Position numbers and translations under genes: made by a program
Notes under the pieces: model-generated
What the model saw: the letters and a program-made list of their open reading frames with translations, nothing else
What the model was told of the DNA's origin: nothing
Databases searched by the model: none
Origin: Lactococcus protaetiae
GTDB taxonomy: Bacteria; Bacillota; Bacilli; Lactobacillales; Streptococcaceae
DNA: 64,000 nt
Direction: 5' to 3'
NCBI RefSeq assembly: GCF_006965445.1
Contig: NZ_CP041356.1
Location: 2,542,001 to 2,606,000, forward strand
Shown here: piece after piece, positions 42,759 to 46,094 of the stretch
Layout of the letters: every line of letters starts with the position of its first letter
Position numbering within the stretch: position 1 is the first letter of the stretch

Positions 42759-44091
42759 TTATTCTTTTGCCTTATGATAAGAAAGCAGACTTGCTAAACA
42801 GATTACAATTGCGAAAACAGTGAGTCCCAAGGATTTGAAGTCACTGTGAAATAGCCAATCACAAGTAATACAACTAAGGTCAAAACGGAGATGATTTTGA
42901 TAAAGGCTGAACCATATCCACCTTTAAAATAGAAAATCAAACTTGAGATTAAAAGCATAATCCAAACAATCAAAATCGTATATGAGATTGAACCTGCAAG
43001 ATAATTGAAAAGATTTGCTCCAAAGATATAAGACAAGATAACACCAATAAATAGCAGTCCAGAACAAAAAGCAATGGCGTGTAAAGGTGCATTCTTCTCA
43101 GAAAGTGCGCTTAACCAGCGTGCTGCCCCAAGTTTTGAATCTTTTGTCCGTGAATAAAGCGAGCGTGATGTTGCATAGATTGCTGAATTAATCACTGAAA
43201 AAAGCGCTAAAATGATAATAAAGTTGATGATATGTGCCGCCCCGGGAATTCCAAATTTATCAAAAATGAGTGCAAATGGGCTTTCTTTTGTTGTGCTTAA
43301 AAACTTCCAAGAGTAGAGTTCAATAAAAAGAAACATCGGAATGAAATAAAATGCAACAATACGAGTCATTACTCCACGAATTGCTTTAGGAATCGCTGTC
43401 TTCGGGTCTTCCACTTCTGAAACAGTAATAGCCACTAACTCAGAACCGCCATAGGAGTAAATTACCATCAGCATGGCGTTGAAAAAGCCTTTCATCCCAT
43501 GGGGTGCAAAACCACCATAGGCATTCATCCGTCCCAATCCATCTGCTACTCCCATATGAAGGACTTGAGCAAAGAGAAACCAAATTCCTAAGACAATCAA
43601 AACAATAATAACTGCAATCTTTGCTATCGCAAGCCAGTACTCTGTTTCAGCAAATGCTCGTACTGAGTAAAGGTTAATTCCCAAAGTAATCAACGCTACA
43701 ATGAGTACAAAAATCCAATCTGGAACTTTAGGCCACCATACACTCAAAAATTGAGCGATAGCAGATGCTTCTGCTACTGTGACACACATCCATGTTGACC
43801 AGTAAACCCAGTCGGTAAAGTGTGCAAAACGCTTGCCCACATACGGTTCAATCAATCCCGCCATACCTACAGATCGTGTTTTTTGGTGAAGTACAATCTG
43901 TCCAACACCATGCATCACGACAAATAAAATAAGTCCAGCAATTAAGTAGGTAAAAATAACAGATGGACCAGCTGCAGCTATCGCCGAGCCTGAACCTGCA
44001 AAAAGACCTGCACCAATCGCTCCCCAAGTGAGAGCATAACAACGTGTCGAGTTTTGAGTGAAGACTTCAACACTTTTTTAGAATTTTCCAT
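42759..44091 (-). pseudogene. fywP: Aromatic amino acid permease (APC family, FywP-like), two one-base frameshifts
   Basis: The visible frame (42803-43918) lacks both ends of a permease. One added G at CCCC 44022-44025 restores MLSLGGAIGAGLFAGSGSAI, the conserved first helix. One at CCC 42826-42828 restores a last helix SNPWGLTVFAIVICLASLL and stop at 42759. The result is a 444-residue, twelve-helix amino acid permease. GGAG lies six bases before the ATG at 44091. The naming rests on similarity to AAT-type permeases and on the leader peptide upstream, whose codons are rich in Phe, Tyr and Trp, the substrates of lactococcal FywP. Substrate is therefore well-supported inference, not proof. Confidence 0.75.
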
Positions 44092-44326: not shown

Positions 44327-44368
44327 ATCCAAAAAGAAAGACCGAATAGCACTTTACTATCCGGTCTT
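44327..44368 (-). terminator. Attenuator terminator in permease leader
   Basis: Stem AAGACCGGATAG / CTATTCGGTCTT, loop TAAAGTG, then TCTTTTT on the minus strand, about 240 bases before the permease start. The heptamer CGGATAG of its 5' arm is repeated at the end of the leader peptide ORF, so the 3' arm can pair with either. Confidence 0.8.
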
Positions 44369-44439
44369 CCTGAGAATCGCAGGCAGCAGAATTTTGAGTA
44401 TACTCAAAAGTTGTATCTACGCCTCTGCATAAACACAAA

Positions 44440-44484
44440 CTATCCGCGCCAAAAGTAAAAGACTGTGAATTGTTGTGAATACAT
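44440..44484 (-). CDS. Leader peptide with aromatic control codons (attenuator)
   Basis: A 14-residue ORF, MYSQQFTVFYFWRG, with six aromatic residues, four consecutive (FYFW). GGAG lies six bases upstream of the ATG and a good promoter 30 bases before that. It is followed by an 18-bp palindrome (TTTTGAGTATACTCAAAA) and a strong terminator before the permease gene. This is the layout of ribosome-mediated attenuation: ribosome stalling at Phe/Tyr/Trp codons in starvation should favour read-through. Seen directly: ORF, RBS, promoter, terminator. Inferred: the regulatory outcome. Confidence 0.7.
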   Translation of the reverse strand: MYSQQFTVFYFWRG

Positions 44485-44513
44485 CTGGTTCTCCTTATCC
44501 TGAATTTTCTATA

Positions 44514-44542
44514 ATTATACTGTCTTTTTGAACAAATTGCAA
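44514..44542 (-). promoter_or_regulatory. Promoter of permease attenuator
   Basis: Minus-strand TTGCAA, 17-base spacer, TATAAT (44514-44519). Confidence 0.75.
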
Positions 44543-44718
44543 GAATCAACTGAATTTTGCGCTATTTTTATCTGACAAGATTCTGTCAGTATGCTGCGGC
44601 TCGACTTGCGACTTCAGTCACCTAGCGAGAACGGACATTCGAGCATTAGCGTGTGGAGATGACAAAACTTTTGACACAACTTTCCGAAATGGTGCAAACT
44701 GTCAGCATACTGACAGGA
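44543..44718. repeat. Spacer with CTGTCAG motifs
   Basis: No gene seen. It has a CTGTCAG half motif near 44587 and a complete pair CTGTCAGCATACTGACAG at about 44700-44717, next to the end of the oxidoreductase gene. Confidence 0.5.
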
Positions 44719-45642
44719 TTACTTTTGTTCTAACATTTTAGAAATGATTTCGTGTGACTTGAATATATTATCTTGTTTAAGCGTTTTCAAGAGTTCTAAC
44801 CGATTTTTGCCATCAAAATTTTTTACAGCTTCAACCATTCCTTGTACTAAATGGTCGAAACCACGATTGTAGGTTGCTGATTGCCAGCCATTGATACCAA
44901 AGTGCTGACAGTCAAGTCCTACAAATTTTTCAAGTTCTGTCAGTTCTGACAGACGTAATGTTTCTGTTTGTGACTCTACTGTAAATTCTTCCATAAAGGC
45001 ACCTGACATGAGATTCATTGTCGCAATCCCTGTAGTTGTCGCTGTTTCAAGCATGACAGCCGCACGTACTAATTTCCCCTCTTCATCAAAATTGATGGAA
45101 GTATGCGTGTCCAAAATTTCATCATCTAACAGATAAATCAATGTGTCCAATGGATGAATGAAAATATCATACATTGAAAATTGCACATTACTGCTTGCCT
45201 GATGCGCAAGATTTTTGCTGACTTTTACCATATTTTTATGTGGCACAGCTTTGAGCTTTTCTGTTTGTGGTGCAAAACGACGATTGAAACCAACAACGAA
45301 AAGGACATTATTTTCCTCTGCAAGTCGTTGTAACTCCTGAACTTCTGCTAGATTTTCTGACACAGGTTTATCCATTAATACTGGAACTCCTGCTGTTAAA
45401 TAGCGTTTTGCTAGTCCAAAATGCTGGCTTGTTGCTGCATGAATAATGAGCAAATCCAATGTTTCGAGTGAAGCTAAGTCTTCTGTAGCGTACTCAAACT
45501 TGTATTGTTGACGTACTTTTTCAGCTTTTTCCCATTCACGAGAATACAAAACAAAGCGATGTTCAGCCTGCATTTTTGCATAAACTGGTAAATAAGCTTT
45601 ACTTGCAATATTTGATGTTGCTCCGATTACTCCGATAATCAT
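44719..45642 (-). CDS. Gfo/Idh/MocA family oxidoreductase
   Basis: A 307-residue NAD(P)-dependent dehydrogenase. The N-terminal Rossmann fold starts MIIGVIGATSNIASKAYLP; the family EKP motif appears as MDKPVSENLAE (about residue 92); VVGFNRRFAPQ follows. The C-terminal alpha/beta domain has IFIHPLDTLIYLL, where a His could be catalytic. The substrate, usually a sugar or inositol derivative, cannot be inferred. It contains three CTGWCAG heptamers. A tandem hairpin array lies upstream. Confidence 0.88.
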   Translation of the reverse strand: MIIGVIGATSNIASKAYLPVYAKMQAEHRFVLYSREWEKAEKVRQQYKFEYATEDLASLETLDLLIIHAATSQHFGLAKRYLTAGVPVLMDKPVSENLAEVQELQRLAEENNVLFVVGFNRRFAPQTEKLKAVPHKNMVKVSKNLAHQASSNVQFSMYDIFIHPLDTLIYLLDDEILDTHTSINFDEEGKLVRAAVMLETATTTGIATMNLMSGAFMEEFTVESQTETLRLSELTELEKFVGLDCQHFGINGWQSATYNRGFDHLVQGMVEAVKNFDGKNRLELLKTLKQDNIFKSHEIISKMLEQK

Positions 45643-45646
45643 TTTT

Positions 45647-46094
45647 TAGATGTGAGTTCCAATACGAAAATTGCCGTTGGCACGTTATAATCAGCGCTCC
45701 TGCTAGATTGGACAAGAAATCTGGAACTCAATTCCTTTCATTTTAAGATGTGAGGGGCGCTCGATCAAAAGCGTAGCGATTTAGGGAATTGGATGGTTCG
45801 TGCGAACGCACGGTTCTCCAATTTATCTAATCGCCTAGCTTTTAGCGCCCCGAACTCAATTTAAGATGTGAGCCCGCCTGCTCTGAAAGGTTGAAAAATA
45901 GGAAAATGTGGAAATGGACGAAGTCCATTGGAACATTTTATCTTTTTTCACGCCTTTCAAGGAGGACAAACTCAATTACAAGATGTGAGGAACGCTCGCC
46001 CAAAAGCATAGTGATTTAGGAAAATATGGTTCTGTGCGAGGCACAGGTTCCATTTTATCTAATCGCCTAGCTTTTAGCGTTCCGAACTCAATTA
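45647..46094. repeat. Tandem array of four long-hairpin repeat units
   Basis: Units at about 45647-45732 (short, diverged), 45744-45861, 45862-45978 and 45980-46094. Each runs from GATGTGAG to ACTCAATT. Bodies are alike but the tip stems differ with pairing kept: CGTGCG/CGCACG, ATGGAC/GTCCAT and CTGTGC/GCACAG. The third unit is of a second type (TTGAAAAATAGGAAAATG body). The last unit reaches the restored thiN stop. Confidence 0.8.

Follow-up and report, generated by a model that had tools for sequence, protein, structure and literature searches.

The DNA before a FywP-like amino-acid permease gene of Lactococcus protaetiae is very probably a ribosome-mediated transcription attenuator in which the aromatic codons of a short leader open reading frame (ORF) serve as the control. 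The element lies on the minus strand of the 64-kb stretch of DNA that was analyzed, hereafter called the window. The evidence for the leader and its switch comes from sequence and comparison: the ORF itself, the codon classes of its relatives, the match between these codons and the genes downstream, and a chain of helices with its covariation. The part of the element that follows the ORF is a divergent relative of the RF04312 'trpB motif', described in 2024 as SRC-39-1, a strong riboswitch candidate published without a ligand; Firmicutes and Fusobacteria together supply its more than 900 representatives (PMC11109978).

We consider it likely that the entire RF04312 class is one re-programmable attenuator scaffold and no riboswitch, whose copies have spread to new operons and swapped their codons. 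If this is true, a conserved helix chain that starts directly after the leader stop codon acts as the switch, and Trp, His, Tyr/Phe or Phe-Tyr-Trp codons set its specificity. An orphan riboswitch candidate with many published representatives would thereby be given a mechanism, and lactic acid bacteria would have classical leader-peptide attenuation in the form of a reusable module that draws its specificity from a few codons, with a possible use as a programmable amino-acid sensor. Among open-licence articles in PubMed Central, we found no paper that names the trpB motif a leader-peptide attenuator.

Architecture of the leader region and proposed mechanism

An original prediction for this DNA, whose interpretation is partly supported overall, listed a promoter, a Shine-Dalgarno sequence, a 14-codon ORF with six aromatic residues, an 18-nt palindrome and a terminator before the permease. 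Every one of these elements is present in that order (Table 1), and four of the six aromatic residues are consecutive (FYFW). Also as described there, the heptamer CGGATAG is present twice, once where the leader ends (44446-44440) and once within the 5' arm of the terminator (44363-44357). The terminator as a whole (44371-44335) has 17 pairs by scan and is followed by TTTTT. An extra helix that the prediction did not contain joins segments 1 and 2 by 12 pairs. On reading the sequences of relatives, TTGCAA/TATAAT arrangements resembling that of the window also stand 5' of their leaders.

Table 1. Features of the leader region and its surroundings in the window
Feature	Coordinates	Strand	Basis or remark
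Promoter-like site: TTGCAA (44542-44537), 17 nt, TATAAT (44519-44514)	44514..44542	-	consensus scan, 10/12
Shine-Dalgarno GGAG, 5' of ATG at 44484	44494-44491	-	
Leader ORF MYSQQFTVFYFWRG, 14 codons, stop TAG	44440..44484	-	sequence and translation; aromatic cluster kept in relatives
Segment 1 (TTGTGTTTATGC), directly 3' of leader stop; partner segment 2	44427..44438	-	12-pair hairpin
Segment 2 (GCGTAGATACAA), 5' arm of RF04312 motif; partner segment 1 or 3	44411..44422	-	
Palindrome TTTTGAGTATACTCAAAA, 18 nt, apical hairpin of P1	44392..44409	-	sequence; in both predicted states
Segment 3, antiterminator strand (3' shoulder of P1); partner segment 2 or 4	44374..44391	-	folding
Segment 4, terminator 5' arm	44355..44371	-	scan, folding, swap test
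Segment 5, terminator 3' arm, then TTTTT	44335..44349	-	
FywP-like amino-acid permease, regulated gene	42803..44091	-	PF00324
Neighbouring upstream gene, same strand as leader	45642-44719	-	

The course of events that we propose starts when RNA polymerase transcribes a short ORF in which Phe-Tyr-Phe-Trp codons lie close to the end. When charged tRNA is scarce, the ribosome would stall at FYFW with its leading edge at about the stop codon, and segment 1 would be left free to form helix 1:2. Segment 3 would then be left over to pair with segment 4, the terminator would be blocked, and the permease gene would be transcribed. When amino acids are plentiful, a ribosome at the stop codon would mask segment 1, helix 2:3 (hairpin P1) would form, and segment 4 would be free for segment 5, whereupon transcription would end. 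Exchange of the control codons would adapt the same scaffold to other amino acids. We infer that the ORF is translated and that the ribosome stalls, and likewise the timing and the direction in which the switch responds.

The labels 'FywP-like' and 'HisP-like' are those of this analysis, and the name fywP was taken from the original prediction; a search of open-licence PubMed Central articles for fywP together with Lactococcus found no paper. Relative to the intact gene of a relative (L006), the permease frame of the window is broken near codon 23 at a G run, and its main open part covers 42803-43918. The interrupted portion (44091-43918) reflects either a real frameshift or an assembly error, so the switch may govern a broken gene here or the assembly may be faulty.

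Two further sequences, CTGTCAGTATGCTG (44583-44596) and CTGTCAGCATACTGACAG (44699-44716), lie just 5' of the leader promoter and are possibly the terminator of the upstream gene or a small repeat; CTGACAG stem-loops 5' of the leader are also present in L008-L010. Between an oxidoreductase-like ORF and the next gene, positions 45639-46093 hold direct, imperfect repeats: copies of 45-49 nt form two pairs with a spacing of 232-235 nt, and 18-nt repeats form a three-copy family. These are possibly a small repeated element.

Relatives of the element and their codon classes

In an Rfam scan of eight loci, RF04312 was the sole meaningful family, and three others gave weak, scattered matches. The window element reaches 34.6 bits and falls below the gathering cut-off of 59, L028 reaches 64.5 bits, and relatives score up to 57.0 bits in the FYW class and up to 77.3 bits in the Trp class. 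Aligned to the model, the window element displays the RF04312 layout of a P1 hairpin followed by a terminator hairpin with a U run, with a weak P1 whose lower stem includes several non-standard pairs. The published motif and the scaffold described here have in common a P1 hairpin with an antiterminator shoulder, a terminator, and a position before trpB or an amino-acid ABC transporter gene. However, the RF04312 model starts at segment 2 and therefore lacks both segment 1 and the leader ORF.

RF04312 was searched at three levels, with some genomes shared between the searches: 82 of 335 genomes from the family matched, 20 of 398 from the class and 5 of 398 from the phylum. Our samples covered the family, class, phylum, order and genus of the window organism. 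Upstream sequence was read for 123 listed matches, 119 of them unique once four duplicates were dropped; members from beyond the order are L071 and L074 (class) and L109 (phylum). A Shine-Dalgarno-led ORF of 9-45 codons that ends at most 36 nt from the motif start is present in 106/119, and a cluster of Trp, His or Phe/Tyr/Trp codons near the ORF end in 100/119. The corresponding rates in 5950 dinucleotide shuffles are 16.7% for a short Shine-Dalgarno-led ORF and 0.40% for the cluster. Among the 93 unique matches of at least 44 bits, 84 pass the automatic leader test and the remaining nine show a leader on inspection. The leader of L057 has a poor Shine-Dalgarno sequence, that of L126 is cut by a contig end and that of L074 has a weak start, and the peptides of L065, L073, L075, L109, L140 and L145 are atypical. 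Ten of the 119 matches, all at or below 43.6 bits, have no leader and by eye are ordinary terminators after genes.

A second covariance model, R1, was built from 28 members with the 1:2 helix and includes segment 1 but only the stop codon of the ORF. Its matches in the order come from 133 of 395 genomes and spread over 29 of 81 genera; in the genus, all 18 genomes match. We chose 58 of the listed matches from outside the window's family by hand, aiming at a spread of families and at second copies, and read their leaders afterwards. All 58 have a Shine-Dalgarno-led leader with Trp or Tyr/Phe codons (42 with a Trp pair, 8 with a single Trp and 8 with a Tyr/Phe cluster), and the leader stop falls between the start of segment 1 and a point shortly beyond that segment (0 to 21 nt). 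The original prediction took such attenuation to be unusual, and this needs correction: the element is no isolated case, as members of the order use one scaffold with His, Trp and Tyr/Phe codons too.

Copies also recur within single genomes. A DNA search of the window organism's own genome located a second copy with the His leader MKNFTSRHHHVHR (codons HHH-V-H) and a 20-base identical core, which stands before a polar amino-acid ABC permease and ATPase. BLAST matches to the scaffold occur in 16 of the 18 genus genomes, with a maximum of five per genome, and the leader classes in the genus are FYFW, HHHxH, WQxW, YYYW and YYYY. Genome G013 carries five copies whose leaders read FYFW, YYYW, WQSW, WQNW and HHHHH. 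A pattern scan of contigs gave 26 stretches, of which 21 belong to Streptococcus or Lactococcus; the five from Bacteroidales and Pelagibacteraceae may be chance hits.

The original prediction named a lack of conserved aromatic codons in relatives as its refutation, and this is not what is seen. FywP homologues (E <= 1e-120) number 20 in 17 of the 18 genus genomes, and 17 of the 20 have a leader: 16 with FYFW, YFFW, YYYW or YYYY and one with FYF, in which Trp is lost. Fifteen of these leaders were already in the main sets. The remaining five homologues include L289 with FYFWQR and L291 with IFYFGQ (without Trp), and the upstream sequences of L288, L290 and L292 contain no leader. The position of the codons is nearly constant: across four codon classes, 101 of the 105 leaders have the last control codon at the distance from the stop that is usual for the class. 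This distance is two codons in 65/67 Trp and 14/14 FYW leaders and one codon in 19/20 His leaders.

For 170 loci, the first identifiable downstream protein was labelled by BLAST to references, and domain searches were run in addition. All 14 FYW leaders precede a FywP-like permease, which is the second ORF in L016 and L022. The 123 Trp leaders, 13 of them with a single Trp, stand before trpX or trpX-like genes, trpB or trpP in 119 cases (108 TrpX/TrpX-like, 7 TrpB and 4 TrpP); the others precede one family-5 binding protein and three proteins without a BLAST match. Each of the 20 His leaders is followed by a his gene or an amino-acid transporter gene (nine HisP-like, eight amino-acid ABC permeases, HisC, HisZ and one YjeM-type permease). 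HisZ-HisG (L071) and HisC-HisZ (L029) are the firm cases of histidine biosynthesis, and we infer a histidine-related reading for the substrates of the transporters.

The 12 Tyr/Phe leaders precede five TrpX-like proteins, one FywP-like protein, two proteins labelled DAHP synthase and four without a BLAST match. By domain search, shikimate dehydrogenase comes first in one of the loci labelled DAHP synthase (L263), and the four BLAST-negative loci encode shikimate dehydrogenase (L271 and L286), a 3-dehydroquinate synthase-like protein (L280) and a family-3 binding protein (L245). Of the binding proteins tested, those behind Trp leaders score above the NCBIfam TrpX cut-off (5/5) and those behind Tyr/Phe leaders below it (3/3), which fits a different substrate. 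The codons therefore agree with the pathway and not one-to-one with the gene, because TrpX-family proteins occur behind both Trp and Tyr/Phe leaders and FywP-like permeases behind both FYW and YYYY leaders. Short ORFs whose control codons appear to match the amino acid of the regulated gene are thus found, and the predicted leader-peptide attenuation through aromatic control codons gains strong support from this comparison.

Two of these observations bear on the reading of RF04312 as a riboswitch, in which the RNA would bind an amino acid or related ligand directly and the ORF would be incidental. The motif was published as a strong candidate with two covarying hairpins, in a report that also left an attenuator possible (PMC11109978). 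We regard a riboswitch as very improbable. Leader ORFs with control codons stand directly before the motif in 100 of the 119 matches, and a single scaffold precedes Trp, His, Tyr/Phe and mixed aromatic genes with codons that change accordingly. Furthermore, the most conserved bases sit in segment 2, and we read this conservation as the result of two pairing duties, one with segment 1 and one with segment 3, for which no ligand pocket is needed.

Helix chain, covariation and ribosome position

The covariation supports the chain of predicted helices 1:2, 2:3, 3:4 and 4:5. Counts were made on 28 of 76 sequences, kept after an identity filter and removal of L069, L079 and L154. Pairing in helix 1:2 reaches 92.3%, and its 13 double-change cells compare with a shuffled mean of 3.5 (0/500 as high) and are spread over 5 pairs against 2.6 (16/500). 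For helix 2:3, pairing is 90.0%, and the 10 double-change cells compare with 5.0 (8/500) and are spread over 4 pairs against 2.2 (28/500). The members are related, and counts throughout this analysis overstate the number of independent events; the shuffle and swap controls account for composition and pairing, not for phylogeny. A consensus fold of the whole alignment of 76 sequences gave one helix because the terminators align poorly.

The swap test was applied to 74 of the 76 non-redundant sequences (L069 and L079 were dropped). The native pair beats the mean swapped partner in 66/74 for 1:2, 63/74 for 2:3, 68/74 for 3:4 (with a short linker, segments 3 and 4 as cut may share a few bases) and 74/74 for 4:5, with a permutation P < 1/5000 for each. 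The seven other segment combinations gave P values from 0.011 to 1.0. Mutually exclusive helices that join leader and terminator are thus predicted with the support of covariation. The CGGATAG pairing of the original prediction, in contrast, hardly covaries.

That pairing would have leader translation control read-through by letting the leader end capture the terminator 3' arm. The duplication is real, and in the swap test the native pair has a slight advantage (P = 0.011, with the six further control combinations at 0.035 to 1.0). However, the native pair is better in 38 and worse in 35 of 74 sequences, its mean energy is -5.6 kcal/mol against -11.6 kcal/mol for 3:4, and a ribosome stalled at FYFW would itself be expected to cover the leader-end segment. 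As the driver of the switch, this pairing is rejected on the swap test, and we consider the reading highly unlikely. The leader end (segment 0) is also complementary to segment 3 (mean -11.1 kcal/mol), with 31 better, 41 worse and P = 0.22. Complementarity that lacks covariation leaves an 'off' state of the untranslated RNA possible but unproven, and such a state is not predicted for the window element, in which the value is 0.63 untranslated and 0.61 with a stalled ribosome.

The effect of ribosome position on the proposed attenuator was modelled with transcripts truncated before the terminator 3' arm. Ribosome cover extended to 11 nt past the first base of the A-site codon, which is taken as the footprint edge. 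Excluded from folding were 17 matches without a strict leader of ATG plus cluster, comprising the 10 leaderless ones and seven atypical ones (L065, L073, L075, L109, L126, L140 and L145). Compared with a ribosome at the stop, one placed at the last control codon is predicted to leave the terminator 5' arm more sequestered in 99 of 105 leaders, and nearly all leaders of each class follow this direction (Trp 64/67, His 18/20, FYW 13/14, Tyr/Phe 4/4). The mean gain in sequestration is +0.206 against +0.002 in 1050 shuffles. It exceeds 0.2 in 51 of the 105, only two of them among the 20 His leaders, and lies below -0.2 in none; six leaders are at or below zero, the lowest at -0.16.

A second set behaves alike, with 49 of 58 positive, 37 above 0.2, two below -0.1 and none below -0.2, and with a practically zero difference in five of eight Tyr/Phe leaders. 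Its 580 shuffles lie above zero in 51% and above 0.2 in 7.8%. With footprint edges of 8-16 nt, the sign is kept in 93 to 101 of the 105 leaders. A scan of positions gives a plateau where the first free base lies at -3 to +6 relative to the first base of the stop codon. The values drop at +12 to +18, which corresponds to a ribosome at the stop, and would rise again with segment 2 covered too. For the window element, sequestration falls from 0.61 with the stalled ribosome to 0.42 at the stop, in the expected direction and of moderate size.

The folding effect is a thermodynamic one and is consistent with read-through that rises when the cognate aminoacyl-tRNA is scarce. In six folded examples, the completed terminator wins in both ribosome states, so the outcome must depend on what happens first as the RNA is transcribed, and this timing is assumed here. 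In attenuators generally, timing during transcription decides the outcome.

TrpP leaders of L140 and L145 in the genus and of L249 in another family run through segment 1 (WQRYRCMYGF or WQRYYCMYGF) and have their stop beyond it. In this variant, a terminating ribosome would cover all of segment 1.

Other regulatory systems and transporter specificity

Control by a T-box or a protein-dependent antiterminator, with the short ORF as a by-product, is most unlikely. T-boxes are common in the window genome (12 matches at E <= 0.001, one of them above the curated cut-off), and the remark that they are the usual control in this group fits as background. However, no Rfam family matches at the gathering threshold anywhere in the window, and no T-box (RF00230) is found at E <= 10 in eight representative loci, the window element (L004) included. 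Furthermore, the leader ORF is retained across relatives though its N-terminal part varies, which argues against a by-product. With 12 T-box matches and the leader scaffold together, the genome runs both systems. T-boxes have been reported for Lactobacillales (PMC9413887).

A plain terminator of the upstream gene next to a chance ORF is hardly credible either: that gene does lie on the same strand, but the promoter-like site stands between it and the element, the full arrangement is kept in relatives and paralogues with matching codon classes, and a chance ORF is rejected on the shuffle rates of 16.7% (ORF) and 0.40% (cluster) against 106/119 and 100/119.

Leader-peptide attenuators of proteobacterial trp and his operons combine tandem control codons in a short ORF with mutually exclusive hairpins and a Rho-independent terminator, and the ilv operon of enterobacteria is a precedent for leaders that respond to several amino acids. 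The element proposed here shares the control-codon ORF, the exclusive hairpins and the Rho-independent terminator. In contrast, its scaffold is common to several amino acids, its chain exceeds that of the textbook trp case by one helix, and the first pairing segment would be masked by a ribosome at the stop and not by a stalled one.

Among Gram-positive bacteria, His-leader attenuators with 3-5 His codons before his genes are described for the Bacillus cereus group, Peptostreptococcaceae and Erysipelotrichales (PMC9413887). Compared by that description, the His leaders found here likewise place a His-codon ORF before his genes, but they stand mostly before transporter genes and on the RF04312 scaffold. 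A leader motif is also already listed for Lactococcus, namely the Leu/phe leader RF01743 in Lactococcus lactis (PMC2864571). This family differs from the scaffold, and it is rejected together with the Rfam families Trp_leader and His_leader, since none of the three matches at E <= 10 in the eight loci.

If the attenuator reading is correct, the likely substrate of uncharacterised transporters could be read from the codons of their leaders. In L109, the leader IFFNNHFR has scattered Phe codons and precedes the gene for a sodium symporter (PF00209), and it is possibly a further codon class. In L154, a Trp-class leader (WQSWHR) precedes a membrane-like protein without Pfam or NCBIfam match, which is a candidate for a new tryptophan transporter.
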